NCBI GenBank assembly: GCA_003577105.1
Contig: QEUQ01000017.1
Span: forward strand, 1 to 42,447
Length of the DNA stretch: 42,447 nucleotides
Source: Acidobacteriota bacterium
Lineage (GTDB): Bacteria > Actinomycetota > Acidimicrobiia > ATN3
Direction: 5' to 3'
Below the pieces are notes generated by a model that worked only from the letters and a program-made list of their open reading frames with translations, ran no database searches and had not been told where the DNA came from. Position 1 is the first letter of the stretch; each line of letters opens with the position of its first letter. Shown here one piece after another: positions 3,375-26,105 of this stretch. The position numbers were made by a program, and so were the translations under genes.

Positions 3375-4687
3375 GAGGTCGCCCCAGGTACGACTTCGAT
3401 GACGGCCCGTGTGTGCGGACGAAGCCACTTGGCCGCTATCGCTGATACTGCCTCAGGCGTGACCGATTCGTAGATTGCTGGAATCTCGTTGATCAGCTGA
3501 GGCTTTGACCTCTGCTGCTCGAAGGCGGCAAGTAGCGTGGCGCGGGTCATGAGGCCATCCAATGCCCCGAGATATGCGGAGATTGACGAGTTCTGGATCC
3601 CCTTGAGCTCAGCGGGCGTTGGCGGGTCGTCTGCGAGCCTTTCGATTTCATCATCGATCGCCCCGGTCACCTCAGCAGCGGTCGCTCCGGATTGATACAT
3701 CGCAACTATCTCGAAGATCGCCGGGTCGCGAACCTCAAATGCCCCTCCCACCAGTCCAACAGATCCGCTGACAGAGTTGGCGAGGCGATCCTTCTTGACC
3801 AGACGCTGGTGCAGGCGAGATGCCTTTCCTTGCGTCAGGACTAGATTCGTCACGATCGCCGCCACGTACTGGCGGAGGTTCTTGATCGGATCGGCGGTGC
3901 GATACCCGAGCGCAACTGCGGGTTCAGGGGCGAGTGGGTCGAACCTAGATGACCGGCGTTCCTTGTCGGGCAAGGGCTCGGCAGCATTGACGGCTGGTGG
4001 TGCCGGTCGCGTCTCAATTCCGCCGAAGTGCTTGCGTACCAGTCGCCGCGCTGTCGCAACCTCAAAATCACCGGCTACAGCTAAGACTGCATTGGCCGGC
4101 GCGTAGTAGGTGTTGAAGAACTCTGCTGCCTCTTCGAGGGTGGCAGCCTCGAGGTCGTCGAATTCTCCATATGCGTTGTGGGCGTTTGGAAAAGTATCAA
4201 ATAGGACCTGCGGCATGTCGATCCACGGGAAACCCCCGTATGGCTGGTTGAGAACATTGACCCGGACCTCTTCCTCAACTACCGCAACTTGATTGGCCAA
4301 GTTTTCGGGTGTGAGGCGCACAGCGCGCATCCTGTCGGATTCAAGAAACAGACCGAGTTCCAGGGCGTTGGAGGGCAGGACCTCGTAGTAGTTGGTGAAG
4401 TCGTTGCGGGTCGAGCCGTTGAACGATCCGCCGTTTGAGGTGACGAGGCGGAAGTGTTCGAGCTTCTCAAGTGTCGCCGAACCCTGAAACATAAGGTGCT
4501 CGAAGAGGTGTGCGAAGCCTGTCCTACCTTCGGGCTCAGATCGGAACCCAACGTCGTAGTGGCATGTCACGGCTACCGCCGGTGCGGATCTGTCGGGACT
4601 TAGAACGACGCGCAGCCCGTTGTCGAGGCGCATACGGTGAATCTCGATCGAGGGCGCAAGCTTGTGGCGGGATCTGTTGGCAGGCAT
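3371..4687 (-). CDS. Zinc peptidase, M16 family, catalytic subunit
   Basis: This 438-residue protein has the inverted zinc motif HLFEH (H60, E63, H64) within GFAHLFEHLMFQGS. A downstream glutamate cluster, VVEEEVR near residue 139, supplies the third metal ligand. These are the hallmarks of M16B processing peptidases, which degrade or process peptides in a closed chamber. A second, degenerate domain occupies the C-terminal half. No signal peptide is evident, so it probably acts in the cytoplasm. The ATG at 4685-4687 has only a weak ribosome-binding site. The gene lies 33 bases after a small four-cysteine ORF and overlaps the non-catalytic subunit downstream, so the three probably share a transcript. 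The physiological substrate cannot be read from the sequence. Confidence 0.88.
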   Translation of the reverse strand: MPANRSRHKLAPSIEIHRMRLDNGLRVVLSPDRSAPAVAVTCHYDVGFRSEPEGRTGFAHLFEHLMFQGSATLEKLEHFRLVTSNGGSFNGSTRNDFTNYYEVLPSNALELGLFLESDRMRAVRLTPENLANQVAVVEEEVRVNVLNQPYGGFPWIDMPQVLFDTFPNAHNAYGEFDDLEAATLEEAAEFFNTYYAPANAVLAVAGDFEVATARRLVRKHFGGIETRPAPPAVNAAEPLPDKERRSSRFDPLAPEPAVALGYRTADPIKNLRQYVAAIVTNLVLTQGKASRLHQRLVKKDRLANSVSGSVGLVGGAFEVRDPAIFEIVAMYQSGATAAEVTGAIDDEIERLADDPPTPAELKGIQNSSISAYLGALDGLMTRATLLAAFEQQRSKPQLINEIPAIYESVTPEAVSAIAAKWLRPHTRAVIEVVPGATS

Positions 4688-7223: not shown

Positions 7224-8492
7224 CTAGGCAGATTGCTCAGGTGGCCCATTCAGCAAGAATTCTCGCCAACTGCGCGCCGCGAACCCGAAGCGTCGGGCCT
7301 CTTGCACCTGAGCGTCATCGCAGATGATCAGCGGCCGGTAGTCGGGAAAGAGCCGCGTGAACTCACCAATACCTCGCAAGTCAGTTCCGCCAAAGCGACC
7401 AGTCTTTACTTCGATGACCCATGATCCCCAACTACCGTCAATAACGGCGTCGACCTCAAACGGCTCGTTGCGCCAGTACGCGACTTGCTGACCCGCATTC
7501 CAGGCCCTCGCCAAGCAGGCATTTTCGACCCACGCGCCAAAGCGTTGAGGATCTGTGGACGCATCAGGCGCGCCACGCGGGTCGACGACTGACGCGAGAG
7601 CGTTATTGAGGACCACGAACTTGGGCGGAGCCGCGCGCGTCCGATTTTGCCGGGCCGAGTGTTTCTTGAGAGCGGCTATGAGGTATGCATCTTCGAGAAG
7701 CTCGAGATAGTGCGCGATCGTTTCCAGCGCGCCCCGGTCTTGAAGTGCGCCCTGCAGTTTCTGGAGCGAGATGATCGTCGTTGGTGACGCCGCGGCAAGG
7801 GAAAAGACTTGGCGCAAGAGGGCGGGGCGCCTGACATCCGAGATTGCCAGCACATCGCGCGTGATTGCAGGCTCGATGATTGCATCTCTGATGTACGCAG
7901 CCCAGCGCGCTAGGTCGTCTTTGAATTCCATTGCGCCTGGGTAGGTACCAATGCGTACCGCGAGATTTGCAGCTTCATTCTCTGGCAATTCGAAGGCGCC
8001 GGCGATTGCCAGCGGCGACCAGTGCGCAATAGATAGCCGCTCGAAGCGTCCTGCAAGACTCTCTCGCGAACCGCTCCTGAGGCGCAGCGCGGACGAACCG
8101 GTCGCCACGACGTGCACCGGAACTTCGCGTCGGCGGATGTCGTCCCATTCGGACTTGAGTTTGGTGGCCCAGTTCTCAATGCTCTGGATTTCGTCGATCA
8201 GAACTACATGCCTTCGCCCGCTGGCAGTGTCGCTTCTCGCCCGAGACCAGATGCGTTCCCAGAACCCGGGGATTGTCGCCTCCGGGCCATCAGCAGCCAC
8301 ATATGTCGCGGCCTTGCCAAGTTCGGATGCCAACTCGATCAGCAGCGTCGTCTTGCCGACTTGGCGCGGACCGGTGAGAAGCTGAATGCGGCCGGGTGCA
8401 GGCTCGCCAAGACGTTGCCTAAGCGTGGTCAGGCAGGTGTTGAAATCGAGGCGGAAGCCACTCGTTGAACTGGAGTCGAGGTCTTGGTTCAT
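7224..8492 (-). CDS. AAA ATPase with DUF4143-type nuclease-like domain
   Basis: This 422-residue protein belongs to the widespread ATPase family with a C-terminal DUF4143 region. Walker A is GPRQVGKTT (about residues 41-49), Walker B is HVVLIDE (95-101), and a sensor-like VVATGSS follows. The C-terminal third has a PD-(D/E)XK-like pattern: FGAWVENA, then EVDAVI, then WVIEVKTGRF. The biological role of the family is unsettled; accessory or defence-like functions have been suggested from patchy distribution. The ATG overlaps a perfect 24-base palindrome and has no ribosome-binding site, suggesting leaderless translation with autoregulation. It stands alone among poorly conserved genes, so horizontal acquisition is plausible. 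Confidence 0.85.
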   Translation of the reverse strand: MNQDLDSSSTSGFRLDFNTCLTTLRQRLGEPAPGRIQLLTGPRQVGKTTLLIELASELGKAATYVAADGPEATIPGFWERIWSRARSDTASGRRHVVLIDEIQSIENWATKLKSEWDDIRRREVPVHVVATGSSALRLRSGSRESLAGRFERLSIAHWSPLAIAGAFELPENEAANLAVRIGTYPGAMEFKDDLARWAAYIRDAIIEPAITRDVLAISDVRRPALLRQVFSLAAASPTTIISLQKLQGALQDRGALETIAHYLELLEDAYLIAALKKHSARQNRTRAAPPKFVVLNNALASVVDPRGAPDASTDPQRFGAWVENACLARAWNAGQQVAYWRNEPFEVDAVIDGSWGSWVIEVKTGRFGGTDLRGIGEFTRLFPDYRPLIICDDAQVQEARRFGFAARSWREFLLNGPPEQSA

Positions 8493-8718: not shown

Positions 8719-9309
8719 TCATGTGAGACTCGGGAAGAACTCCTGAAGCCATCCCCATACGGTCAGACCGGCAAAGAGGCAAATGATGACCCCGCAGGCG
8801 ATGAAGGCGATTTCTTCGCGCCTTGACCATGCCTCAGCCCCGGAACCTACCGCGAATGTGATGGCAACCGTGGCCGCGACAATCAGAGAGAGCACGACAA
8901 ACGCGATCAGGGTCGGGATCTCGGCCCCTTTTGGTCCGGTCGGATACGAATAGACCATCAAGAGCGCGAATCCGGCGAGCGACATCGCGAAGAGCATCAC
9001 GCCCGCGCGCGAACCAAGTCGTAACCCACGATTTGCGAGCTGGCCAAGTCCCGCGAGAATTCCGGCCGCGAGCGCGGGCAGGAATCCGAAAAGGATCAAA
9101 GCCCCCCATTGTTCCGAGTGGGCACCCGGATGACCTGTGTAGTCCGGCTTCTTCAGCACGACGACGATGCAATATGCGAGTAGTGCCACCGCCTGCACCG
9201 CCAGCACGTGCGCTCCTGTTCGTGTCGCCCCAGCTCCGCCTCGGAGGGGCATTTGGGTGGTCGATGCAGACGTCGGGTCCTCATTGATCAAGTCGGCGAC
9301 GTCACTCAT
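8719..9309 (-). CDS. Integral membrane protein, unknown function
   Basis: This is a 196-residue protein with a polar N-terminal tail of about 30 residues followed by five hydrophobic helices: around 33-52, 68-88, 101-121, 133-155 and 166-188. The last two are separated by a charged loop, AWSRREE. I do not recognise the family and see no catalytic or transport motif. The ATG at 9309 has GAGGTGA upstream at suitable spacing. The same-strand upstream neighbour (lipoprotein-like, 9388-9903) ends 78 bases away, so co-transcription is possible. After its stop the same frame stays open for another 64 codons (see findings). Its membrane location is the only firm statement. Confidence 0.65.
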   Translation of the reverse strand: MSDVADLINEDPTSASTTQMPLRGGAGATRTGAHVLAVQAVALLAYCIVVVLKKPDYTGHPGAHSEQWGALILFGFLPALAAGILAGLGQLANRGLRLGSRAGVMLFAMSLAGFALLMVYSYPTGPKGAEIPTLIAFVVLSLIVAATVAITFAVGSGAEAWSRREEIAFIACGVIICLFAGLTVWGWLQEFFPSLT

Positions 9310-10030: not shown

Positions 10031-11191
10031 TCATGCTTGTGCTGTGCAGGCTGTAGTCGGGCGGCCGTCCAACTGCAGCAGCTGGCCAAGCGTGGAGACC
10101 GGAACCCAGTCGCCGCTTCCTATCTCGGATGCGCGGCAGTCAGACGTAGCCGCGCTGCTCGCCCTCCCCAACCGCATGCCGAACTGCGGACCTGGAAGAT
10201 CGACGTGTGTAATTACTGGTTCAATCTCGCGGCCAGTGGGACTTACTGCGCTCAGACAGACGGTTTGGCCCAGATCACCCGTCTTCACACTGATCTGAGT
10301 GACCAGTGATCGATAGTGCCAAGGATCACTCTGAATTTGGTACTCGCGGATGAAGTGCGGATCTTCAGTGAATTGGCGATGCTCGCCGTAATAGCGAACC
10401 TCACCGATGAGTGCCGCGCGAAGGTCTTGGCTCGTCTCGCTGTCGAGCGTCATCGCAGTTGCCTCACGCTCGATCGCCACCTGCAGTCCCAGGGGAAGCA
10501 CGACGATCAAGGCGGTGGCAACGCCGCGCTGGAAACGTACGCCGGTCGCGGCTGCCGCTCGCATCGCAAGTAGGACCGGCACAGTTAGCGCGAGCGTCGT
10601 GGCACTCAGAACCGCAATGTGCGATCCAATGCGCGATGGCGGATGCGGAACACCATAGAAGCCGGCTAACCGAATAGCTGCTACTAGTGCTCCATCGAAC
10701 AACGAAAATAGGGCGATAGCCGTCACCCAGGCTCCCAGGCGGGGAACGCGGACCCGTCGGGCTGCCATGCCTACGATCGACAAGAGCAGGTCTGCAATTG
10801 CAAGCAGCATCGCACCGGCGACAATCGCCAATAGCGACCAGCACAGCCAGTCCGTCGAAAGGCGCCCGCCGAGTGGCGATTCCAGTGCGCAGCTCCCGGC
10901 CGCGAAACCTAAGTAGACGGCCGCGAGCTGAACAGGGAGAAGGAGAGCCGCCACCAACGCGTTGCCGCTTGCCGAGGGCGGCCGCGGAGAAGGCAAAGTG
11001 AAGTCGAAGCGAACGGTTCGGGAAACCGCAGGGCGATCTCCGCCGAACTCAGCAGCGAAGGCCGTCTCGCGCGCGAGACGGAGGCGCTGACGGTCCTGAA
11101 GGACGACAGCCAAGAGAAGCGTCAGCGACAGGGCGAAGTAGGCGGTCGCGAGAACTCCCAGAACAACTGTCAGGGTCACCGCTGAGCCCAA
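10031..11191 (-). CDS. Multi-pass membrane protein with extracytoplasmic C-terminal domain, unknown
   Basis: This is a 386-residue protein starting at TTG 11191, seven bases after GGAAGG. It has a first helix at residues 3-30, then a basic cytoplasmic stretch, then about six further hydrophobic helices up to residue ~240 and a polar C-terminal domain of ~145 residues. The C-terminal domain has paired cysteines (VCLSAVSPTG near 317, SDCRASEIGSGDW near 352) and reads like a small beta-rich secreted module. I do not recognise the family. No partner of known function is adjacent. Base composition is in line with its neighbours. Confidence 0.6.
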   Translation of the reverse strand: MGSAVTLTVVLGVLATAYFALSLTLLLAVVLQDRQRLRLARETAFAAEFGGDRPAVSRTVRFDFTLPSPRPPSASGNALVAALLLPVQLAAVYLGFAAGSCALESPLGGRLSTDWLCWSLLAIVAGAMLLAIADLLLSIVGMAARRVRVPRLGAWVTAIALFSLFDGALVAAIRLAGFYGVPHPPSRIGSHIAVLSATTLALTVPVLLAMRAAAATGVRFQRGVATALIVVLPLGLQVAIEREATAMTLDSETSQDLRAALIGEVRYYGEHRQFTEDPHFIREYQIQSDPWHYRSLVTQISVKTGDLGQTVCLSAVSPTGREIEPVITHVDLPGPQFGMRLGRASSAATSDCRASEIGSGDWVPVSTLGQLLQLDGRPTTACTAQA

Positions 11192-11389: not shown

Positions 11390-11461
11390 TGCCCCCGGCA
11401 GGATTCGAACCTGCGCACCCGGCTCCGGAGGCCGGTGCTCTATCCCCTGAGCTACGAGGGC
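11390..11461 (-). tRNA. tRNA-Arg, anticodon CCG
   Basis: The minus strand folds as a full cloverleaf: acceptor GCCCTCG with CGGGGGC (one wobble), D-stem GCTC/GAGC, anticodon stem CCGGC/GCCGG around loop CTCCGGA (anticodon CCG, reading CGG), a four-base variable loop, and T-arm GCAGG-TTCGAAT-CCTGC. The discriminator base is A and CCA is not encoded. It is intact and not interrupted. It lies between the membrane-protein gene and the methyltransferase gene. Confidence 0.95.
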
Positions 11462-11697: not shown

Positions 11698-13176
11698 GTG
11701 GCTGCGCGAAGGTCACGGACATCTACCTATAACTTTGGGGCCTCTCGGCGAGAGAGCCATGATGCTTCGCCTTTCTATCAGCGATTCACGACGCCTGATA
11801 TCGCGGCGGACGCGAGGGTAAATCCGCCGAGCGCAGTCGATCGCCTCATTTGCGCAGACGCGTCGGCGATGACCGATGTTGCTGACAACTCGGTAGCTCT
11901 TGTAGTGACCTCCCCTCCCTACTTTGCCGGGAAGGAGTACGAGGAGGCGCTGGGGCGGGGGGACACTCCTGCCACCTACCTGGAATATCTGGAGATGCTC
12001 GAGTCAGTCTTCGCCGAGTGCAGCCGAGTCCTCGAGCCGGGCGGGCGGATCGCCGTCAATGTGGCCAATCTCGGCCGAAAGCCGTACCGCTCGCTCTCAG
12101 CCGACGTCACGGCGATTCTCCAGGACAGGCTCAAGTTGCTGCTTCGAGGCGAGGTGGTCTGGGTCAAGGCGCGCGGCTCGACCGGATCCTGTGCATGGGG
12201 AACCTTCCAGCGCCCTACGAACCCCGTCCTGCGTGACCTAACTGAGCGCGTGATCATTGCCGGGAAGGGGCGCTTTGACCGGGCTGTCAGCGCAAAGGAG
12301 CGCCACGAAAGACACATGCCGTGCGACTCATCGCTGAGTCGCGATGAATTCATGGAGGCAACAACTGACTTATGGGAGATTCCCCCCGAGAGCGCAACTC
12401 GGGTGGGTCATCCGGCGCCGTTCCCGGTTGGTTTGCCCGTTCGCCTGATCAACCTCTACACCTACTGTGGAGATCTCGTGCTCGACCCATTCGCCGGATC
12501 GGGAACGACCGCCATCGCGGCGCTGCGAACCGGCCGTCACTACATTGGCTATGACACCGATGCCGGCTACATCGAGCTTGCTGAGGCTCGGGTGGCCGAG
12601 GAGAGGCGTCGCTTGGAGTCAGGCGGGGGTGACGATCACGAAGACCGCCGATTCTTCTTGCCGGCGATACCAGACGATGGCAAAGACCAACCTGACTCCC
12701 TAGCCGGCAATGCGGCTGCAATCAGTCAGGGCGCAGGGGCTAAGCAGGTCGCGGGCGAAATGCTTGAAGCTTCCGGATTCAGGAAAATCCAGCGAGACGT
12801 CAAGGTAAAGGCGGGGATCGAGGTCGCCTTCAGCGCCGAAGACGCTTCAGGCACCACTTGGCATTTCGAGGTCTGCGGCGGATTCACAAGCGTCCGCCCT
12901 GGGCTCCTAAGAGGCGACATATTGTGGAAGGCGCTGGGCACAGCATGTGTCTTGCACCAGGTTGCTCCCGACGTCCCACTCGTGCTGCTCACGACCGGGG
13001 TGCCCAAACCGGGCAGCGCAGGGCACAGGGCACTTTTCGAAGTTGTGGGGCCAGGCTCTCCGATCTTCTCTGTCATCGAAATCGACTCGACGTCAGGGCA
13101 CGAGGCACTGAGCCTGCTGGCCAGAGGTGCTGGTCAGAGGGGGGGCAGAGGAGACGCGAAAGCGGTTCGAAGCTAG
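11698..13176 (+). CDS. Site-specific DNA methyltransferase with extra C-terminal domain
   Basis: This 492-residue protein has an N6-adenine/N4-cytosine methyltransferase core of the beta arrangement: catalytic motif IV TSPPY (about residue 71) precedes the SAM-binding motif I DPFAGSGTT (about 262), with GYDTDAGYIELAEAR following. After a linker near 310-345, a ~140-residue C-terminal part contains a GxEVAFSAEDASGTTWHFEV segment resembling the D-x(n)-E core of PD-(D/E)XK nucleases, then SVRPGLLRGDILWKALG. The usual lysine appears as cysteine (EVC). The GTG at 11698 has GGAAGGA eight bases upstream. No separate restriction or specificity gene is adjacent, so it is either a single-chain enzyme or an orphan methyltransferase. 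The target sequence cannot be predicted. Confidence 0.85.
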   Translation: MAARRSRTSTYNFGASRRESHDASPFYQRFTTPDIAADARVNPPSAVDRLICADASAMTDVADNSVALVVTSPPYFAGKEYEEALGRGDTPATYLEYLEMLESVFAECSRVLEPGGRIAVNVANLGRKPYRSLSADVTAILQDRLKLLLRGEVVWVKARGSTGSCAWGTFQRPTNPVLRDLTERVIIAGKGRFDRAVSAKERHERHMPCDSSLSRDEFMEATTDLWEIPPESATRVGHPAPFPVGLPVRLINLYTYCGDLVLDPFAGSGTTAIAALRTGRHYIGYDTDAGYIELAEARVAEERRRLESGGGDDHEDRRFFLPAIPDDGKDQPDSLAGNAAAISQGAGAKQVAGEMLEASGFRKIQRDVKVKAGIEVAFSAEDASGTTWHFEVCGGFTSVRPGLLRGDILWKALGTACVLHQVAPDVPLVLLTTGVPKPGSAGHRALFEVVGPGSPIFSVIEIDSTSGHEALSLLARGAGQRGGRGDAKAVRS

Positions 13177-15150: not shown

Positions 15151-16863
15151 TTGCTCAAGACTCGAGATTCGATTTCTGCCGCCCTGCTCACTGCGACCAA
15201 GCGCCTCGCAGATGCGGGCGAATTGAACCTTGCTTTTCCGCCTGAGATCGCAGAGGTCGAGCGCCCGCGCATTCAGGAACATGGTGATTGGTCGAGCAAT
15301 CTTGCGCTCACGCTTGCCAAGCAGGCGAAGCGGTCGCCACGAGAGATTGCCGAGCTGATAGCGGGCGCGATTGAGGTGCCGGGGGGCATCAGAGAGGTAG
15401 CTGTCGAGGGCGCCGGATTCGTGAACTTCCATCTTGATCCAGAAGCCTGGGGAGAAGTCGTTCGCGAAGTGGTCGAATCGGGTTCGGACTTCGGATCGTG
15501 CAGTATCGGCGCGGGCACCGTGACGAACTTGGAGTTTGTTTCTGCAAATCCGACGGGGCCGATGCATCTCGGGCACGCACGATGGGCTGCCTGGGGCGAC
15601 GCGCTTGGGAGGCTTCTGAGCAAGTCGGGGTTCACCCTGACCCGTGAGTTCTATATCAACGACGCCGGCAACCAGCTTGAACTGCTGGGCAAGTCATTGG
15701 CAGCTCGTTACCTTCACGCGCTAGGTCAAGAAGCCGAGGTTCCTGAGGACGGATACCAGGGCGATTACCTCGTCGATCTTGCCGCGGAGCTTGTGGCCGA
15801 GGTCGGTGATTCCTGGGCGGCGATCGACGCGGGCGAGCGTGATGAGAAGTGCGGGGAGTGGGGTTGCGCCCGGCTGACCCGAGAGATCAAAGACCAGCTG
15901 GGCCGCCTCGGCGTCGAGTTTGATGTCTGGTTCTCGGAGCGGGCAATGCGCGAGTCGGGCGCGGTCGAACGCGCTCTAGATGACTTGAGGGAACTCGACA
16001 AGGTATACGAGGCCGAGGGTGCCACCTGGCTCCGATCCACCGACTTCGGCGATGACAAGGACCGGGTGCTTGTTAAGAGTGACGGCTCATATACATATCT
16101 CGCCGGCGACATCGCCTATCACCGGGACAAGTTCGCCCGAGGCTTCGAACTTCTGATCGACCTGTGGGGAGCCGATCATGGAGGGCATGTGCCGAAGCTG
16201 CGCGCTGCCATTGAAGCGCTGGGCTATCCGGTCGATTCACTCGAGGTGGTCCTGGGTCAGCTGGTAAGCCTTGAGAGAGGCGGCGAACCGGTACGCATGT
16301 CGAAGCGCAGCGGTGACGTCTATACCTATGAGGAACTCGTTGACGAGATCGGCCCTGACGCGGCCAGGTTCCACTTCCTCATGCAAGGTCCGGACTCGGC
16401 TCTCAGGCTCGACCTCGATGCAATCGTCGCCCAGTCCATGGAGAACCCGGTCTTTTACGTGCAAATGGCCCACGCTCGGATCTGCTCAATCCAGCGCAAG
16501 GCAGCTGAGGCCGGAATTGATCGTGAGGCCATTGACGAGGTTGACCTCGGGCTGCTCGTTGCCAACGAGGAGCTCTCGCTACTCAGAAAGCTGGATGAGT
16601 ACCCCGACCTCATCGCGGACGCAGCGCAGAGGCGTGCTCCACATCGCCTGACCCAGTGGGCCCGTGAGCTCGCGGGCGCATTCCATAGCTTCTATCAAGA
16701 GCACCGGGTAATCGACGGGCCCGGCCAAATGGTTCAGGCCAGGCTTTGGCTGATCGAGGCATGCCGGATCGGATTGGCTGACGCCATGGGGCTCCTCGGC
16801 GTGCACGCTCCGGAGCTAATGGAGCGAATCGACGCGGATGATTCGATCGAGGGTGAGTCATGA
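15151..16863 (+). CDS. argS: Arginyl-tRNA synthetase
   Basis: This class I synthetase of 570 residues charges tRNA-Arg in the cytoplasm. Visible features are the N-terminal Add1 domain, the HIGH motif as HLGH (138-141) in SANPTGPMHLGHAR, the KMSK motif as MSKRSG (about 382), and an all-helical anticodon-binding C-terminus with FHSFYQEHRV. The TTG start at 15151 is supported by AGGA six bases upstream. It begins a long same-strand operon: its TGA overlaps the ATG of lysA. The gene order argS-lysA-hom-thrC is the common actinobacterial one. The HIGH and KMSK motifs are intact and the length is normal. Confidence 0.97.
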   Translation: MLKTRDSISAALLTATKRLADAGELNLAFPPEIAEVERPRIQEHGDWSSNLALTLAKQAKRSPREIAELIAGAIEVPGGIREVAVEGAGFVNFHLDPEAWGEVVREVVESGSDFGSCSIGAGTVTNLEFVSANPTGPMHLGHARWAAWGDALGRLLSKSGFTLTREFYINDAGNQLELLGKSLAARYLHALGQEAEVPEDGYQGDYLVDLAAELVAEVGDSWAAIDAGERDEKCGEWGCARLTREIKDQLGRLGVEFDVWFSERAMRESGAVERALDDLRELDKVYEAEGATWLRSTDFGDDKDRVLVKSDGSYTYLAGDIAYHRDKFARGFELLIDLWGADHGGHVPKLRAAIEALGYPVDSLEVVLGQLVSLERGGEPVRMSKRSGDVYTYEELVDEIGPDAARFHFLMQGPDSALRLDLDAIVAQSMENPVFYVQMAHARICSIQRKAAEAGIDREAIDEVDLGLLVANEELSLLRKLDEYPDLIADAAQRRAPHRLTQWARELAGAFHSFYQEHRVIDGPGQMVQARLWLIEACRIGLADAMGLLGVHAPELMERIDADDSIEGES

Positions 16864-18191
16864 GCGCACGATTCCCCGAGGGGCTCGCCGAGATTCTTCC
16901 AATGACCGCGGCAATTTCGGCCGACGGTCACCTGACGATTGGCGGCTGCGACACGGTCGAACTCGCCCGCGAATTCGGCACGCCGCTTTACGTTTACGAC
17001 GAGGCCCATCTGCGGGACAGATGCGGGCAATACCGAGATTCCTTTGCTGCTGAGGCCGAGTCGGCGCGGGTCATCTTTGCGGGCAAGTCCTTTTGCACTC
17101 TCGCTATGTGCCGTCTTGTGGCCGAGGAGGGCTTGTATCTAGATGTCGCCAGCGGAGGCGAGCTGGCCACCGCACTGGCGGCAGGTTTTCCAGCCGAGCG
17201 CATTTACTTTCACGGAAACAACAAGTCGGAGTCCGAGATCTGTGAGGCGCTTGTGGCCGATGTCGGCCGCATTGTCATCGACAGTTTCGAGGAGCTTGCC
17301 CGCGTCGCACATCTAGCCCGAGAGCATGGCGTGAGGCCGCGGGTATTGCTTCGGATTACACCTGGCATTGAAGCTCACACGCACGAGTTCATTCGGACCG
17401 GCCAGCTCGACTCGAAGTTTGGTTTTGGCGTTGAAGACGGCGTGGCCGCGCGCGCGATCAAGACCGCAGCTGAGGAGCCTGCCGTCGAACTTGTGGGGGT
17501 GCATGCCCACATCGGCTCGCAGATTTTTCTGCTGCACTCATATGCCAAGGCGGTAGACGTGATGATTGATTTCCTCGCCGAGACCAAGGCGAATCTTGGT
17601 GTAGACCTCGCGGAGCTGAATCTCGGTGGGGGACTTGGCATCGCCTACACGGCCGATGACACTCCCGAGACTATTGCCGGTTACGCATCGACCATTGTTG
17701 GCGAAGCCCGACGGCACGCCGCCGAGCGTGGTATTGCAGAGCCGATGGTCGCGGTCGAGCCGGGGCGCTCGATCACGGGAAACGCAGCAGTGACCCTCTA
17801 CGAGGTGGGGACGATCAAGGAGGTTCCGGGGATCCGGACTTATGTGGCGGTCGATGGCGGCATGAGCGACAACTTGCGTCCGATGCTCTATGGCGCGCAG
17901 TACGAAGCGTTGACGGCGAATCGCGCACACGAGGAGAGGACTCGAGAGGTCACGATCGCGGGCAAGCATTGCGAATCGGGCGACGTCTTGATCAAAGATG
18001 CGCGCCTCGGGGCAGGTCTGGCCGTCGGTGACATCATCGCGACGCCGGCGACCGGCGCGTACGGATGGGTGATGTCGAACAACTACAACGCTGTGCCGCG
18101 CCCAGCAGTCGTCTTTGTTGCGGACGGTCGCGCTCGAGTCGTGGTTCATAGAGAGTCATACGACGATTTGCTGCGTAATCAAGAACCGTGA
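16860..18191 (+). CDS. lysA: Diaminopimelate decarboxylase
   Basis: This 443-residue PLP enzyme of the alanine-racemase fold type III decarboxylates meso-diaminopimelate to L-lysine, the last step of lysine synthesis. PLP lysine is K76 in IFAGKSF. Other family marks are HAHIGSQIF, ELNLGGGLGIAY for the phosphate, VEPGRSI, and GKHCESGDVL, which supplies the active-site cysteine from the partner subunit. The ATG overlaps the argS stop (ATGA), with GAGGGTG upstream. The gene ends 28 bases before hom. Confidence 0.96.
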   Translation: MSARFPEGLAEILPMTAAISADGHLTIGGCDTVELAREFGTPLYVYDEAHLRDRCGQYRDSFAAEAESARVIFAGKSFCTLAMCRLVAEEGLYLDVASGGELATALAAGFPAERIYFHGNNKSESEICEALVADVGRIVIDSFEELARVAHLAREHGVRPRVLLRITPGIEAHTHEFIRTGQLDSKFGFGVEDGVAARAIKTAAEEPAVELVGVHAHIGSQIFLLHSYAKAVDVMIDFLAETKANLGVDLAELNLGGGLGIAYTADDTPETIAGYASTIVGEARRHAAERGIAEPMVAVEPGRSITGNAAVTLYEVGTIKEVPGIRTYVAVDGGMSDNLRPMLYGAQYEALTANRAHEERTREVTIAGKHCESGDVLIKDARLGAGLAVGDIIATPATGAYGWVMSNNYNAVPRPAVVFVADGRARVVVHRESYDDLLRNQEP

Positions 18192-18219: not shown

Positions 18220-19536
18220 ATGACAAAGGGTGAAATGAGCAACACAGATGCCCGCGTGATCCGAGTCGGGCTCCTCGGGTGTGGAATCGTCGGCAGCGCA
18301 ACCTGCCGCTTGCTCGGCGATCACGCCGAGGAAATCCGCATGCGGACCGGATGCACTGTCGAGATCAGCAGGGTTGCCGTGCGCAATCTCTCGAAGGATC
18401 GCGACGTCGATGTACCAGCCGACCGGTTCACCAATGACGCGCACGCGGTTGTCAACGATCCGGAAATCGACGTTGTTATTGAGGTAATTGGAGGGATCGA
18501 GCCGGCGCGCACGCTCATCCTTGAGGCAATTGACTCCGACAAGCAGGTGGTCACCGCTAACAAGGAGCTCATCTCTTCACTTGGCGGAGAGCTGATAGCT
18601 GCCGCTGAGGCGAGGGGCGTAGACCTCTTGTTCGAAGCGAGCGTCGGTGGCGGGATTCCGATTGTTCGCCCACTCGAGGAATCGCTTGCGGGCGAGAAGG
18701 TGCGAAGCGTCATAGGGATACTCAACGGGACTACGAACTATGTTCTGACACGCATGACCGAAGACGGGCTCAGCCTTCACGACGCTGTTGCCGAGGCCCA
18801 GGAGCTCGGCTATGCAGAGCGCGACCCGAGCGCGGATGTCGAGGGGTTTGACGCGGCCGCCAAGACGGCGATCCTCGCCTCCATTGCCTTCGATACCAAG
18901 GTCACTTCTGGGGATGTGTATCGCGAGGGCATAACTGCGGTCAGCCAGCTAGACATTGCGTTGGCCGACCGACTCGGATACGTGATCAAGCTGCTAGCGA
19001 TTGCTCGCCTCGACTCGGGCGAGGTCGAGGCGCGCGTTCACCCGGCGATGATCTCGAAGAATCACCCTCTCGCCAGTGTGCGCGAGTCTTTCAACGCGGT
19101 CTTCGTAGAAGGCAATTCGGTGGGCGAGATCATGTTCTACGGCAGGGGGGCGGGTGGCGGCCCAACCGCGACAAGCGTCGTCGGCGATGTGGTCGCGGCG
19201 GTCCGGCACTTGAGCGAGGGAGGCAAGGCGCATCGCCCGCATCGACTTCTCGAATTGCCGGTCAGGGCCTTCGATGAAATTCGCACGCAGTATTACCTGC
19301 TATTTGAGGTAGCCGATCAGCCGGGTGTGCTCGCTCAGATCGCCGCAGCCTTTGGGTCTCACGAGGTCTCCATCGCCGGAGTCTGGCAGGAGGGGCAGGG
19401 GGATCAGGCTCAATTGGTGATCATCACCCACCGGGCCAGGGAGCGAGATCTTCAGGAGACCCTTCACGAACTGCGAGGTCTTGATGTAGTGGTCGAAATC
19501 AAGTCGGTTCTGCGAGTCGAGTCCGAGGAAACCTAG
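18220..19536 (+). CDS. hom: Homoserine dehydrogenase with ACT domain
   Basis: This 438-residue enzyme reduces aspartate semialdehyde to homoserine with NAD(P)H. The dinucleotide-binding GLLGCGIVGS is at the N-terminus, followed by VVTANKELI and NGTTNYVLT, then the active-site EAQELGYAERDPSADVEGFDAA. The C-terminal ACT domain (about 355-430) suggests allosteric control, threonine being the usual effector. The ATG at 18235 is a plausible alternative start, with AAAGGG just upstream. The TAG is followed at once by the thrC ATG. It feeds the threonine branch, but no thrB follows in this operon. Confidence 0.95.
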   Translation: MTKGEMSNTDARVIRVGLLGCGIVGSATCRLLGDHAEEIRMRTGCTVEISRVAVRNLSKDRDVDVPADRFTNDAHAVVNDPEIDVVIEVIGGIEPARTLILEAIDSDKQVVTANKELISSLGGELIAAAEARGVDLLFEASVGGGIPIVRPLEESLAGEKVRSVIGILNGTTNYVLTRMTEDGLSLHDAVAEAQELGYAERDPSADVEGFDAAAKTAILASIAFDTKVTSGDVYREGITAVSQLDIALADRLGYVIKLLAIARLDSGEVEARVHPAMISKNHPLASVRESFNAVFVEGNSVGEIMFYGRGAGGGPTATSVVGDVVAAVRHLSEGGKAHRPHRLLELPVRAFDEIRTQYYLLFEVADQPGVLAQIAAAFGSHEVSIAGVWQEGQGDQAQLVIITHRARERDLQETLHELRGLDVVVEIKSVLRVESEET

Positions 19537-20601
19537 ATGGCCGGGCCAGGCTGGCGGGGCCTGATCGAGGAATACAGGGAGTTCCTACCGGTAAGTGATT
19601 CGACCCCCGTTGTGACCCTTCACGAGGGTGGTACTCCACTGGTGCGAGCCGAGTCGCTCTCGGCGCGCCTAGGCCTAGATGTTTGGCTCAAGATCGAGGG
19701 GCAGAACCCGACCGGATCCTTCAAGGATCGCGGCATGACAATGGCTATCACGAAAGCTCTTGAGGAGGGCTCAAAGGCCGTCATCTGCGCAAGCACGGGA
19801 AACACTTCGGCAGCCGCGGCAGCATATGCGGGGCGTGCGCAGATGACATGTGCTGTGCTGATTCCAGAAGGCAACATCGCACTCGGCAAGTTGGCCCAGG
19901 CTCTGATGCACGGGGCGAGAGTGCTCGCCATAAGGGGGAATTTTGACCGCGCGCTTGGCTTTGCTCGGGAGATTGCAGACAGGTATCCGGTCACCCTGGT
20001 GAATTCTCTCAACCCGTATCGGATCGAGGGGCAGAAGACCGGCGCCTTTGAGATTTGCGATGTACTCGGGCGGGCCCCCGACTATCACTTCATTCCGGTA
20101 GGCAATGCAGGCAACATCACCGCCTACTGGAAGGGGTATCGCGAGTATCAAGATGCGGGCAAGATCTCGGCCTTGCCGGCCATGATGGGTTTTCAGGCCG
20201 CTGGCGCGGCACCGATTGTCCTTGGTGAGCCAGTTGACAACCCCGAGACAGTGGCTACTGCGATTCGTATCGGTAATCCTGCATCGTGGCGCTCGGCTGA
20301 AGCCGCAGCCAGCGAGTCTTCAGGGGGGATCTGGGCGGTCACAGACGACGAGATTCTTTCGGCATATCGAATGGTCGCCGCGGAGGAGGGAGTGTTTTGC
20401 GAGCCCGCCTCAGCTGCCTCTATCGCCGGGTTGTCGCAGCGCCACGAGGCGGGCCGGCTCGCATCTGGCGCGACTGCGGTATGCGTGCTGACGGGGGCAG
20501 GTCTGAAGGATCCCGATCGGGCTATTGCAGAGTCCGGTCGGCCAATCAGCCTTCCCGCAGAAATTGATGCCATCGTCGCTGAACTCGGTCTAGAGGCCTG
20601 A
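19537..20601 (+). CDS. thrC: Threonine synthase
   Basis: This PLP enzyme of 354 residues converts O-phosphohomoserine to threonine. The PLP lysine is K63 in [30 protein letters not shown] and the phosphate-binding [15 protein letters not shown] are the other family motifs. The length matches the compact actinobacterial form. It starts directly at the hom stop, with GAGGAAA inside the hom end as ribosome-binding site. Its substrate requires a homoserine kinase, normally encoded next to it. Here the next genes are a phosphoglycerate-mutase-like protein and the cyclic diphosphoglycerate pair. Confidence 0.96.
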
Positions 20602-20686: not shown

Positions 20687-20705
20687 ATGATCGTTTGGCG
20701 ATCAT
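20687..20705 (+). promoter_or_regulatory. Hairpin directly upstream of a ribosome-binding site
   Basis: A perfect 7-bp inverted repeat (ATGATCG/CGATCAT) with a five-base loop ends at 20705. The GGAG ribosome-binding site of the mutase-like gene begins at 20706. The hairpin could stack on or hide the site, or act as an operator. No antiterminator partner or U-run is visible. Confidence 0.4.
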
Positions 20706-20715
20706 GGAGCGGCAG

Positions 20716-21861
20716 TTGAAGTACCTGTGCCTCATTCCCGATGGAGTGGCAGATCAACCGTGTGATGCGCTGGGTGGGCGCACGCCGCTCGAGGCAGCTG
20801 AAATCCCAACTATTCGCAGATGGGCAGGGGCCGGACTGACGGGGCGCGCTCGCAACGTTCCGAGTGGCTTTCCGCCCGGTAGCGACGTGGCCATCATGTC
20901 GATACTTGGTCTTGATCCCGCCTTGTACTTCACCGGGCGCGCTCCGCTTGAGGCAGCAGCGATGGGGATCGAGCTGGCCGAGAATCAAGTTGCCTATCGC
21001 TGCAATCTGGTGACCGTCGAAGACGGAGTCATGAAAGATTTTTCGGCCGGACACATTACGACCGAAAGCGCACGTCCGCTCATCGGCGCTATTGACGATG
21101 TGCTGGGTGGCGGTGAGATCTCTTTCGTCCCGGGCGTCGGATATCGCCATATTTGCATTGTTCCTGAGGAGCTCGGCGAAGCTGAGTGCGTCCCCCCCCA
21201 CGACCTCACCGACAAGGCGATCGTGCTGCCTTCGGGTCCGGCCTCAGCCAAGCTGATCGAGCTTATGGACGCCTCCAAAGACGTACTGGCCGAGGCCGAT
21301 CCGTCTGGCAAGGCCACTCAGATTTGGCTATGGGGGCAGGGGAAGCAGCCATCGACGCCGACCTTTGAAGATCGTTACGGAATGACCGGCGCAATCATTA
21401 CGGCGGTCGATCTGGTGAGAGGTCTTGGTGTCCTTGCCCATCTTGAGGTGATCGATGTACCGGGCGCGACCGGGTACTACGACACCGACTATTCCGCCAA
21501 GGCCGAACATGCGCTTGAGGCGCTGGACCGGTTTGACTTCTGCTTGGTGCACGTAGAGGCGACCGACGAAGCTGGTCACGAAGGAAGACTCGATCTCAAG
21601 CTCGAGGCTTTGGAGAACTTCGACTCCAAGATTTGCGCTCGCTTAAATGAGGCATTGGACGGGGAGGAGTACCGGGTACTTCTGCTTCCTGATCATCCGA
21701 CTCCCGTTGCCACAAAGACCCACACTGACGACCCGGTGCCATATTTGATCTACGACTCAACCGCTGACGGCCCCGGCGGGGATTTCACGGAAGTCGGGAC
21801 GGCCGGCTCCGATCCAATTGCGGGGCACGAACTCCTCAGCAACCTGTTTACCAACGGATAG
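20716..21861 (+). CDS. ApgM-like phosphoglycerate mutase / proposed homoserine kinase family
   Basis: This 381-residue alkaline-phosphatase-superfamily protein is of the archaeal ApgM type. The TTG at 20716 is chosen over longer frames because GGAG lies six bases upstream and the product then begins MKYLCLIPDGVADQP, the normal family N-terminus. PPGSDVAIMSILGLDP holds the active-site serine; VHVEATDEAGHEGRL and LLLPDHPTPVATKTHT supply the metal-binding Asp/His residues. True ApgM interconverts 3- and 2-phosphoglycerate. A bacterial branch (TIGR02535) has been proposed as a homoserine kinase because it sits in threonine operons lacking thrB, which is the situation here. The next two genes use phosphoglycerate, so both roles are open. 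Confidence 0.85.
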   Translation: MKYLCLIPDGVADQPCDALGGRTPLEAAEIPTIRRWAGAGLTGRARNVPSGFPPGSDVAIMSILGLDPALYFTGRAPLEAAAMGIELAENQVAYRCNLVTVEDGVMKDFSAGHITTESARPLIGAIDDVLGGGEISFVPGVGYRHICIVPEELGEAECVPPHDLTDKAIVLPSGPASAKLIELMDASKDVLAEADPSGKATQIWLWGQGKQPSTPTFEDRYGMTGAIITAVDLVRGLGVLAHLEVIDVPGATGYYDTDYSAKAEHALEALDRFDFCLVHVEATDEAGHEGRLDLKLEALENFDSKICARLNEALDGEEYRVLLLPDHPTPVATKTHTDDPVPYLIYDSTADGPGGDFTEVGTAGSDPIAGHELLSNLFTNG

Positions 21862-21874
21862 ATCGAGGAACTCC

Positions 21875-23260
21875 GTGGCGCGCCGGCTTCTGGTTCTGAT
21901 TGACGGTGAGCACTACTTGCCGGTGATTGAAGCGGCCCTAAGTGATCTGAGGTCCCGAGGTGATGAGGTCGTTGGCCTTGCCTTGTTAGGGGGTGTTGAG
22001 AAGCTTCCGGCGGGAGGGCTGGACTCCGGCACAATGAGTGCTCCACTGGTATCAGGCACGTCACCGGCCGACGCCCTCACGAAGGCAATTGCCCAGTTCA
22101 AGCCCGACGCAGTGTTTGACCTTTCCGATCAGCCAGTTCTTGATCCACGGTTGCGCATGGAGCTTGCCGGGCGCAGCCTGGCAATGGGGATTCCCTATGA
22201 AGGAACCGACTTCTCCTTTACTCCGCTTCGGCGCGACGAGATTTCGACTCGGCCATCGATCGCGGTGATCGGTACCGGCAAGCGCACCGGCAAGACCTCG
22301 ATCTGCGGGGCAATTGCCAGAAGTCTTGCGGCTCGGGGCTTTAGGCCGCTGATCGTTGCCATGGGCCGCGGCGGACCAGTTGAGCCCGAGGTAATTCGTC
22401 CGCACCGCGACGGACCGCTCACGCCCGAATCGCTGATCGATCTAGCCGATGACGGTCGGCACGCAGCAAGCGATCACATCGAAGATGCGGTGCTTGCCGG
22501 GGTCACGACAATTGGAACCAGGCGTTGCGGCGGCGGGCTCGCAGGAGCACCAGGACCTTCAACTTTTTCGGCCGGTGTCGAGGTAGCTGGTGTCGAAGCC
22601 GATGCCGAAGGTCACGACATCTTCCTTTTCGAGGGGAGCGGATCTGCGATCCCGCCCGTCAAATCCGACGTCACGGTGCTCGTTGTCCCTGCGTCGATTC
22701 GGAGCGAGGAACTCGCGGGGTACATGGGGCCGTTTCGGGTTCTGCTGGCCGACTACGTCATTATCGTCGAGCCGGGTGATACCGACGCCAGAGCCGGTGA
22801 TGCAGAAGCACTGGTATCGCAGGTCAATTCCTCAGCCGAGGTCCACTATGTGACTCTGGAGCCCTTTCCTACGGGGGATGTGCGAGGAAAGAAAGTGGCA
22901 ATTGCAACCACGGCGCCACTCGGCGCCATTGAGAGTGTCGAGTCTCATCTGAGACTGTCATATGGCGCAGATATTGTTGCCTCAACGACCTCGCTTTCCG
23001 ACAGAGCTCAGCTCGCCGTTGAACTTCCTGCTCTGATAGCAAACGCCGACGTGGTTGCCACAGAGGTGAAGGCTGCAGGAATCGATGTTGTGGCGCGGGC
23101 CGCACGAGATGCCGGCGCCGAAATTGTGTTCATTGACAATCAGCCTCGGCTGAAAAATAGCAAACTCACTTTCGCCGACCTCGCTGGGCGCTTGGGAGAA
23201 TTGGCGATCGAAAGGTTCGAGAAGCGAATGCACCCGATTCAGCGGCAGAGTGAGCGATGA
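21875..23260 (+). CDS. cpgS: Cyclic 2,3-diphosphoglycerate synthetase
   Basis: This 461-residue protein matches the archaeal cDPG synthetase family, which closes 2,3-diphosphoglycerate into its cyclic phosphoanhydride using ATP. Marks are the N-terminal RRLLVLIDGEHYLPVI and LGGVEKL, and the P-loop GTGKRTGKT at 133-141 followed by an AIARSLAARG helix. The middle has the glycine-rich RRCGGGLAGAPGPSTF and FLFEGSGSAIPPVKSD. The GTG at 21875 has GAGGAA four bases upstream and starts 13 bases after the mutase-like gene. An in-frame start at 21818 would lie inside that gene. The stop overlaps the kinase start. Base composition resembles its neighbours, so any transfer is not recent. Confidence 0.88.
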   Translation: MARRLLVLIDGEHYLPVIEAALSDLRSRGDEVVGLALLGGVEKLPAGGLDSGTMSAPLVSGTSPADALTKAIAQFKPDAVFDLSDQPVLDPRLRMELAGRSLAMGIPYEGTDFSFTPLRRDEISTRPSIAVIGTGKRTGKTSICGAIARSLAARGFRPLIVAMGRGGPVEPEVIRPHRDGPLTPESLIDLADDGRHAASDHIEDAVLAGVTTIGTRRCGGGLAGAPGPSTFSAGVEVAGVEADAEGHDIFLFEGSGSAIPPVKSDVTVLVVPASIRSEELAGYMGPFRVLLADYVIIVEPGDTDARAGDAEALVSQVNSSAEVHYVTLEPFPTGDVRGKKVAIATTAPLGAIESVESHLRLSYGADIVASTTSLSDRAQLAVELPALIANADVVATEVKAAGIDVVARAARDAGAEIVFIDNQPRLKNSKLTFADLAGRLGELAIERFEKRMHPIQRQSER

Positions 23261-24204
23261 CGCGCCGAGCACCAATCCTGGTCAGTTCGGATAACCACGA
23301 ACTCCCATATTCCAAGGGAGTGATGGCCGCAGAGATCACGGCGACCGGGCTGTCACCTAGCCGTGCATATGAGGTGGCGGAGGCGATCGAGGAGCATTTG
23401 ATCGCCACAGAGAGGCGTCAGCTCACAGCGGACGCGCTCGCTGAACTGGCTACAGGTGTTATCGAGAGCGAGGTCGGCGAGCGCTATGCGCGCAACTTCA
23501 CCCGCTGGCGCGCCCTCGGAGCCATCGACCGCCCGCTCGTCATCTTGATCGGCGGCACCACTGGAGTCGGGAAGTCGACGATTGCCACGCAGATTGCGTC
23601 GCGCCTTGGAATCACCCGAGTGATACCGACCGATGCAATAAGAGAGGTCATGAGAGGCATGTTCACGACTGAACTCATGCCGTCCTTGCACACGTCGAGC
23701 TTCGAAGCAGAGCGCCTAGTCGTGCAGCCACTGCCGAAATCCGCTGACAAGGTGATCATTGGGTATCGAGAGCAGGCTCGCGCCGTCTGTGTCGGAGTTG
23801 ATTCATTGATTTCCAGGGCCATCAACGAGGGCACCGACCTGATCATTGAAGGCGCGCACGCTTGCCCGGGTTATTTCAAGGAACCGTCGCCTCAAGAAGC
23901 AGTCTTTGTTCCGATCGTCATTTCGATCGGTGACGAGACGCTTCACCGTAGCCATTTCGCGTTTCGCTCAAGGGAGGCTAGAGATCGCCCGCAGGGTCGC
24001 TACCTGAAGTACTTCGCAAACATCCGGCGGATCCAGAAGTACATTCGGAAGTCCGCCTCTTCCAACGGCGTTCCCATTGTGGAGAGTTTCGAGCTCGATA
24101 GGACCGTCAGCGAGTGCATTGACCTGGTACTTGATCGCGTCGCCCAGGCCGTCGGTGAAGGGAATCTTGAATCAACTCGTCGCGTCGCGCCGAATTCAGG
24201 CTAA
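23257..24204 (+). CDS. 2-Phosphoglycerate kinase with ATP-cone
   Basis: This 315-residue protein matches 2-phosphoglycerate kinase, which makes 2,3-diphosphoglycerate from 2-phosphoglycerate and ATP, the step before the cyclase. The N-terminal ~85 residues form an ATP-cone-like domain (ELPYSKGVMAAEITATG, then Ala/Glu-rich helices). The P-loop kinase domain follows: LIGGTTGVGKSTIA (about 97-110), PTDAIREVMR, the lid-like HFAFRSREARDRPQGRY, and KYFANIRRIQKYI. The ATG overlaps the synthetase stop (ATGA), so the two are coupled. Together they complete the known cDPG route. As a small-molecule kinase next to hom-thrC it is also a second candidate for the missing homoserine kinase activity. Confidence 0.86.
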   Translation: MTRRAPILVSSDNHELPYSKGVMAAEITATGLSPSRAYEVAEAIEEHLIATERRQLTADALAELATGVIESEVGERYARNFTRWRALGAIDRPLVILIGGTTGVGKSTIATQIASRLGITRVIPTDAIREVMRGMFTTELMPSLHTSSFEAERLVVQPLPKSADKVIIGYREQARAVCVGVDSLISRAINEGTDLIIEGAHACPGYFKEPSPQEAVFVPIVISIGDETLHRSHFAFRSREARDRPQGRYLKYFANIRRIQKYIRKSASSNGVPIVESFELDRTVSECIDLVLDRVAQAVGEGNLESTRRVAPNSG

Positions 24205-24443: not shown

Positions 24444-24512
24444 GACAAGCCGACTTAGCCGGGTCAACAAATCGGTCTGCCACTGGCGACGCGATTGAGC
24501 AGGAGATTGAAC

Positions 24513-26105
24513 GTGACCGACAAAGCGGTTGAAACTTCCGAGGCAGAGACTGACCACGACGCTGGTACCGGTCTTGCCAAGGAAATCGGCAGAGCGTCCG
24601 ATGGCACAGATTCAACAGATCCGACTAACGGTTCTGGGACTCGGCGCACCAAGCCAGTCCGTCGGACAGCCGCCAAGGCGTCCAAGGCTGATGCCGACGG
24701 AGAAGACGGAGCTGATGACACCTCGCCGAGGTCCGACGACGGTGACGCGCTCGATGGCGAGGGCGCTCGAAGCACGCGTTCGACTGCGTCAAGAGGAACC
24801 GCAAAGGCATCTGAGAGCCGGGGCGAAGCCCGCGGCGAGGGCAGGGCCGACCAAGGTGCTCAGCGCCAGCGCAGCGGCGGCAGGCAGCAGCAGCAGCAGT
24901 TCGCCCGGCAACGAGGAAATCGGCCTCGAACGGGTGGGCGTCCACGAAGCGGTGGGGACCAAGCGGAAGAACCGCGCGGCGAGCCTCGTCCGGTAAAGGG
25001 CACTCTGGACATCCTCCCGGAGGGCTACGGCTTTCTTCGGGCCTCTGGATATCTGCCCGGTGACGACGACGTATATGTGAGCCTCAGCCAGATTAGGCGT
25101 TTCCAACTGCGGCGCGGCGACTACATCGAGGGATCAGTTCGGCCGCCGAAGGACAGCGAGAAATACCCCGCGCTGCTGAGAATCGACACCATCAACGGCC
25201 TCGATCCCGAGCAGAGTCGCGAGCGTCCTCGTTTCGACGAGCTGACGCCGCTCTTCCCCGACTCACGGCTTCGCCTGGAACTTGAAGGTGACGGCGACAT
25301 CACCCAGCGAATAATCGACTTGATCTCGCCAATAGGCAAGGGCCAGCGCGGTTTGATCGTGTCCCCCCCGAAGGCCGGGAAGACGACGATCATGAAGCAG
25401 ATCGCCCAGTCAATTGCTGTCAACAACCCAGAAGTCCACCTGATGGTTCTGCTGGTAGATGAGCGGCCCGAAGAGGTTACCGACATGGCGCGTTCGGTCA
25501 AGGGTGAGGTGATCTCATCGACCTTTGACAGGCCGGCCGAGGAGCACACGCAGGTGGCCGAGCTCGCAATTGAGCGGGCAAAGCGCCTTGTTGAGCAGGG
25601 CAAAGACGTGGTGATCATCCTCGATGGCATTACCCGCCTTGCAAGGGCTTACAACCTCTCGGCTCCGGCGTCCGGCAGGATTCTTTCCGGTGGCGTCGAC
25701 TCGACAGCGCTTTACCCTCCGAAGAGATTCTTTGGCGCGGCCCGCAATATCGAAGAGGGCGGATCACTCACCATCTTGGCCACCGCCCTCGTAGAGACAG
25801 GCTCCAAGATGGACGAGGTGATATTCGAGGAGTTCAAGGGCACCGGCAACATGGAACTGCGCCTCGATCGGAAACTTGCTGACAAGCGAGTGTTTCCAGC
25901 GCTCGACGTATCCGGATCAGGTACTCGCCATGAAGAGCTTCTCTTCGATAGGAACCAGCTCGCTCAGGTATGGAAACTGCGCCGAGTGCTGAGCGCTCTC
26001 GAAGGGGGCGCGGGCCTCGAGTTGCTGAGCGACAAAATGAAGGACACCAAGTCAAACGATGAGTTTCTTGCTGAGATCGCCAAGACTCCGATGCCAGGCA
26101 CCTAG
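24513..26105 (+). CDS. rho: Transcription termination factor Rho
   Basis: This 530-residue hexameric RNA helicase ends untranslated and many other transcripts. The first ~150 residues are a disordered, charged insertion with repeated Arg/Gly/Gln stretches (including QQQQQ), as in other high-G+C Gram-positives, where it binds RNA and widens target choice. The RNA-binding cold-shock-like domain follows ([20 protein letters not shown]), then the ATPase with P-loop SPPKAGKTT (about 286) and [13 protein letters not shown]. The GTG at 24513 has AGGAG seven bases upstream; a TTG six codons earlier lacks a good site. Rho sits in its usual place between the threonine region and rpmE. Confidence 0.96.

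Follow-up and report, generated by a model that had tools for sequence, protein, structure and literature searches.

The 42,447 nucleotide contig QEUQ01000017.1 of an assembly named Acidobacteriota bacterium (an uncultured organism, placed by GTDB in the Actinomycetota, class Acidimicrobiia, ATN3), referred to here at its full length as the window, encodes homologues of the two enzymes of cyclic 2,3-diphosphoglycerate (cDPG) biosynthesis next to genes for threonine biosynthesis. This locus probably holds the synthesis part of a bacterial module for making and breaking cDPG, combined with a threonine branch that uses ThrB2, a proposed alternative homoserine kinase, in a host with a mesophile-like protein composition. 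Three plus-strand genes are central to it: P0001 (20704–21861), of the ApgM superfamily; P0002 (21875–23260), a homologue of cDPG synthetase (cDPGS); and P0003 (23257–24204), a homologue of 2-phosphoglycerate kinase (2PGK) of the ATP-cone and P-loop kinase type. The reading frames are open throughout. Their place and order, the 13 bases between the P0001 stop at 21861 and the P0002 GTG start at 21875, the ATGA overlap of P0002 and P0003 at 23257–23260, and the motifs IDGEHYLPV and GTGKRTGKT in the translation are all as described in the original prediction, which was made from the sequence of this stretch. The first gene was likewise found, although it more likely begins with the in-frame ATG at 20704 than with the TTG at 20716 that had been proposed. 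The family matches are far beyond chance (E 1.3e-90 for cDPGS against 8ORU, E 7.5e-89 for 2PGK and E 4.5e-136 for TIGR02535).

P0002 is a full-length homologue of the structurally solved cDPGS of Methanothermus fervidus, to which it is 38% identical. Its matches in the PDB are to cDPG synthetases only and run near end to end (phmmer E 1.3e-90 to 8ORU/8ORK from M. fervidus and 1.3e-83 to 9SXB). Residues 3–449 of its 461 align to 8ORU, including the N-terminal domain that is found only in cDPGS. In the M. fervidus enzyme, contacts to 2,3-diphosphoglycerate (2,3-DPG), ATP or Mg are reported for E45, K46, K145, R146, K149, T150, D208, T353, E404 and K406 (PMC10690619). These ten correspond to E42, K43, K136, R137, K140, T141, D200, T346, E397 and K399 of P0002 and are invariant among 115 aligned bacterial and archaeal sequences. 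The original prediction had proposed that missing active-site residues would count against it; for the synthetase, this test found all ten reported contacts kept. Of two further residues named as ATP contacts, E305 aligns into a gapped stretch with E298 of P0002 nearby, and P335 is off the numbering of the deposited sequence, with a nearby proline (P332 of P0002) invariant in the alignment. NCBIfam has no family that matches P0002, and Pfam gives sub-threshold P-loop matches only.

P0003 matches 2PGK models at about 300 bits (300 bits for NF008994) and is homologous to them over its full length. It has 60 of the 89 positions that are invariant among seven archaeal 2PGKs, including most of the P-loop GGTTGVGKS, and all 26 positions that are invariant in a set of 31 sequences, including the P-loop residues G99, G100, G103, G105 and S107. 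The best of all its matches, of 300 bits, is to the bacterial 2PGK of Deinococcus-Thermus (PRK12337, COG2074), from which it differs in that its 315 residues match only the C-terminal part, positions 173–476, of a 492-position model. Because P0003 is adjacent to cDPGS and shares its phylogenetic profile, it is likely to catalyse the same reaction as 2PGK. Judged from these homologies, there is good reason to expect that P0002 and P0003 make cDPG. As in the M. fervidus route (8ORK/8ORU), both enzymes are present at full length and the substrate and nucleotide contacts of cDPGS are conserved. The locus differs from that route in being bacterial, in having the two genes adjacent and beside a threonine operon and rho, in its co-distributed metallophosphoesterase, and in the mesophile-like composition of the host. 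In contrast to the adjacent genes seen here, the archaeal cDPGS loci that were fetched showed no relative of 2PGK in the vicinity.

Other genomes share the arrangement of cDPGS with 2PGK. Named prokaryote genomes, when scanned, gave 418 stretches with cDPGS relatives, the best 80 of which are from Actinomycetota, Methanobacteriota, Omnitrophota and Cloacimonadota. In a sample of 396 Actinomycetota, 211 match cDPGS at E up to 0.001, or 200 after 11 weak matches are dropped, and 2PGK is usually next to the gene. Within the class to which the window belongs, cDPGS is present in only 5 out of 60 genomes. 2PGK is present in each of the 15 cDPGS genomes that were checked, which come from archaea and three bacterial phyla, and among 149 Actinomycetota the presence of the two agrees in 86 of 87 genomes, with one exception each way. 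The recurrent gene order in many lineages, with omissions, is lysA-hom-thrC-(thrB or thrB2)-(phosphoesterase)-cDPGS-2PGK-(talC)-rho, with rho after 2PGK in most of the Actinomycetota loci. The claim that a cDPG synthetase adjoins a 2-phosphoglycerate kinase in a bacterial threonine locus is supported. In the sequence tree, which is unrooted and leaves the direction of transfer undecided, the archaeal cDPGS form one group beside part of the actinobacterial diversity. The talC gene (fructose-6-phosphate aldolase / transaldolase), absent from the window, is often found between 2PGK and rho in Actinomycetota (e.g. L011:10901–11560). The record titled Acidimicrobium ferrooxidans (L123) also has the cassette; its title may be wrong, because 2PGK has the same coordinates in its genome (G442) as in G112, which is placed outside the class of the window, and no claim is made for the type strain.

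Co-distributed with cDPGS is a further enzyme that the original prediction did not mention, a calcineurin-like metallophosphoesterase about 270 residues long. It is directly 5' of cDPGS in Aquicultor, Geothermocultor, Euzebyaceae and others, and between 2PGK and cDPGS in G045 and G049. In one Cloacimonadota record the order is cDPGS-2PGK-phosphoesterase in a row (L120:6001–10172), with a phosphoesterase frame of about 500 residues that is longer than elsewhere. There are 73 cDPGS loci with listed coordinates, and at least one of the two partners is within 2 kb of cDPGS in every one of them: 2PGK in 59, the phosphoesterase in 61, and both in 47. Among the 149 Actinomycetota, cDPGS and phosphoesterase agree in 86 of 87 genomes, again with one exception each way; Fisher's test gives P of about 4e-40 for such agreement, on an assumption of independent genomes that does not hold. 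The profile within the class of the window is the better test, because the trait is patchy there. Exactly the same five of the 60 genomes carry both cDPGS and the phosphoesterase, a coincidence of 1 in 5.5 million with shared ancestry ignored, and the two are unlinked in three of these, including the genome described here.

In this genome the phosphoesterase is found at G000:C19:7966–8790. It is 62% identical to the cDPGS-linked copy of G045 and retains the metal-binding motifs. The structures nearest to its model (pLDDT 90) are those of GpdQ, Rv0805 and the purple acid phosphatases. With the calcineurin-like phosphodiesterases GpdQ and Rv0805 it shares the fold and the metal-binding motifs of a phosphoesterase, yet the identity is only 15–19% and, in difference from these, it is linked to cDPGS in most Actinomycetota loci. 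The phosphoesterase quite likely belongs to the cDPG module; that it hydrolyses cDPG or 2,3-DPG has about an even chance. Since it is co-distributed with the cDPGS-2PGK pair, the system looks like one of synthesis and turnover. A membrane-bound cDPG hydrolase activity of Methanothermobacter is described in a review (PMC1224877), and no gene for it was found in the literature examined.

Homology, active-site conservation, gene order and phylogenetic profiles point to a scheme in which the reactions, the substrate of the phosphoesterase and the physiological role are deduced from the genes. In the threonine branch of hom, thrC and ThrB2, P0001 would make O-phosphohomoserine for ThrC, in replacement of the missing ThrB. 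Glycolytic 2-phosphoglycerate would be phosphorylated by 2PGK to 2,3-DPG, which cDPGS would close to cDPG with the expenditure of a second ATP. The gene for the phosphoesterase is elsewhere in this genome but adjoins cDPGS in most relatives; the enzyme would close the cycle through a probable hydrolysis of cDPG or 2,3-DPG.

Several points weigh against this scheme. The branch that leads to P0002 is long (1.35 changes per site), and the activity of this protein may have drifted despite the retained key residues. P0003 scores 298 bits against the curated 2PGK model NF003259, below the cut-off of 343 that is passed in 12 out of 149 Actinomycetota, and differs at 29 of the 89 positions invariant in the archaeal 2PGKs; its family membership is less strict than that of P0002 in cDPGS. 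The P values of the phylogenetic profiles ignore shared ancestry. In this genome the phosphoesterase gene is off the cDPGS locus, at a site (L182) between two genes that presumably encode a plsC-like acyltransferase and an fbiD-like guanylyltransferase of the F420 pathway, a setting that could mean another substrate or a second role. The production of cDPG by any bacterium that carries these genes is a deduction from gene content. A plsC-like gene also adjoins the phosphoesterase in several genomes of other families and in G001 and G035, and an fbiD-like one does so in G001, G035 and G075.

In one alternative, the substrates of the two enzyme homologues are different ones (for instance another phosphorylated hydroxy acid, with a link to F420 or amino-acid metabolism), and the product is some other cyclic or doubly phosphorylated compound. 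Some relatives of 2PGK are indeed other kinases, for example mevalonate-3-phosphate 5-kinase, and the phosphoesterase of this genome does adjoin the fbiD-like gene. The literature examined reports cDPG only from methanogens and states that it is found only in hyperthermophilic ones (PMC10690619), and searches on Actinobacteria and Rubrobacter in connection with cDPG or 2PGK turned up no account of the compound in bacteria. Against this, the residues reported to contact 2,3-DPG (E45, K145 and R146) do not vary between the archaeal and bacterial sequences, and cDPGS and 2PGK, consecutive enzymes of a known route, are inherited together. A change of substrate is therefore considered unlikely.

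The gene 5' of cDPGS, P0001, had been taken for a mutase that could supply 2-phosphoglycerate. It passes TIGR02535, the model for the proposed alternative homoserine kinase ThrB2 (453.7 bits, cut-off 446.3). It also passes PRK04200, 'cofactor-independent phosphoglycerate mutase' (464 bits, cut-off 426), a model that, though named for a mutase, apparently overlaps TIGR02535, judging by the scores; the cut-offs of PRK04024 and PRK04135 are not reached. No ThrB over the cut-off is present in the genome, in which there are only four weak GHMP-kinase matches of 33 bits or less. When ThrB is counted at matches of about 100 bits or more, ThrB and ThrB2 are nearly exclusive in the class: 12 of 60 genomes have only the ThrB2 type, 33 only ThrB, one has both and 14 have neither, 12 of these last being from one genus of small genomes (about 0.9–1.1 Mb). 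In related loci (L054, L055, L076, L085 and L122) a normal thrB is found where P0001 lies here, after the threonine genes and before the cassette. A second ApgM of the same genome (G000:C69) passes the mutase model PRK04135.

The genetics of a TIGR02535 member, BT2402 of Bacteroides thetaiotaomicron, show that it is required for growth without threonine (PMC7311316), and the distributions of thrB and thrB2 in gut genomes are complementary (PMC9026213). On the other side, an E. coli thrB mutant was not rescued by BT2402 (PMC7311316), so that ThrB2 activity is itself putative. The setting of BT2402 is similar, in that a protein of the ApgM superfamily adjoins hom and thrC and the genome lacks ThrB (PMC9026213); the differences are that P0001 is actinobacterial and is followed directly by cDPGS, and in both cases the activity is putative. 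Because of the match to TIGR02535, the lack of ThrB, the thrB in the sister slots, the second mutase and the published genetics, P0001 most probably functions in threonine synthesis and is likely to be the homoserine kinase of that pathway.

The same evidence makes it improbable that P0001 is a phosphoglycerate mutase feeding 2-phosphoglycerate to 2PGK and cDPGS in a single three-gene pathway. Such a pathway is suggested by the adjacency of P0001 to cDPGS, by the match to PRK04200, and by a link of 2PGK-cDPGS with a bona fide ApgM in one Omnitrophota locus. The replacement of P0001 by thrB in situ and the presence of a dedicated mutase elsewhere in the genome argue against it. The proposal of a complete route was thus upheld for the two steps after 2-phosphoglycerate and not for the mutase step. 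In the Omnitrophota locus (L093:203–3735), 2PGK-cDPGS is followed by a true ApgM that passes PRK04024, and threonine genes were not seen there; the mutase chemistry originally proposed may hold at that locus.

A last alternative is that 2,3-DPG is the useful end product (for example as a cofactor for cofactor-dependent phosphoglycerate mutase) and cDPGS a minor side branch. In its favour, G003 has 2PGK without cDPGS, and two control genomes, those of Thermus and Deinobacterium, give 2PGK matches; it is very improbable given that Actinomycetota with 2PGK nearly always retain cDPGS too. The role as mutase cofactor was set aside here, as no cofactor-dependent mutase scores over the cut-off in the genome (best 31 bits, cut-off 82). 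The match in G003, a genome of the same class as the window, is at G003:C1:2937756–2938610 (202 bits, with one internal stop codon), in the absence of both cDPGS and phosphoesterase.

For cDPG, the roles that have been described are those of heat protectant and, possibly, phosphate/energy store and radical scavenger (PMC10690619, PMC1224877). In a set of about 70,000 residues encoded by this genome, the IVYWREL fraction comes to 0.403, compared with 0.396 in E. coli, 0.391 in Methanobrevibacter loci and 0.45–0.46 in hot-spring and Methanopyri loci; the index is crude, with genes called as longest ORFs, a possible inflation by high GC, and several small comparison sets. Amino-acid composition does not support a thermophilic host, and a hyperthermophilic lifestyle appears unlikely from the sequence. 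Because the host proteins look mesophilic, cDPG would more likely be a phosphate/energy and K+-balanced anion store, or an oxidative or osmotic protectant, than a heat protectant; such store or protectant roles would suit this host better.

The three genes are preceded by argS, lysA, hom and thrC and followed by rho, DUF1385 and prfA. All of those with model scores are on the plus strand: lysA (diaminopimelate decarboxylase, 16860–18191; TIGR01048 475 bits, cut-off 298), hom (homoserine dehydrogenase with an ACT domain, 18220–19536; NF004976 548 bits, cut-off 205), thrC (threonine synthase, 19537–20601; TIGR00260 325 bits, cut-off 167) and rho, the next gene and the conserved downstream boundary of the locus (24495–26105; TIGR00767 628 bits). 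Promoter and terminator scans across the locus gave no signal above shuffled sequence. A tRNA was the sole match in an Rfam scan of the window. Further 5', an N4/N6 DNA methyltransferase gene (11698–13176) adjoins this tRNA gene (11390–11461, minus strand), and together with an AAA_14/DUF4143 ATPase (7224–8492) and two unassigned ORFs (8719–9309 and 10031–11191) it could be a small inserted island. Two neighbouring minus-strand genes for M16 peptidase-family proteins are located at 2055–4687, with overlapping frames (2055–3428 and 3371–4687).

The enzymes are of a known kind; what is new is that they occur in bacteria, here in an apparently mesophilic host, and have a phosphoesterase as partner. 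The replacement of P0001 by thrB in situ is strong genomic support for the proposed ThrB2 homoserine kinase. Homologues of cDPGS and 2PGK are found in about half of the sampled Actinomycetota, as well as in Omnitrophota and Cloacimonadota, in organisms with very different apparent growth temperatures. It is suggested, tentatively and with the balance somewhat against it, that cDPG is not confined to methanogens but is widely used in the metabolism of Actinomycetota, both mesophilic and thermophilic, and of some other bacteria, with a dedicated 2PGK-cDPGS-metallophosphoesterase module in which the phosphoesterase is the cDPG hydrolase, and that its role is that of a signal or a regulated phosphate/energy store and not protection from heat. 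If so, there would be a candidate gene for cDPG breakdown, and enzymes from likely mesophiles would be available for the manufacture of cDPG. The purpose of cDPG would then need to be rethought, and a direct test in bacteria would be possible through its 31P signals.

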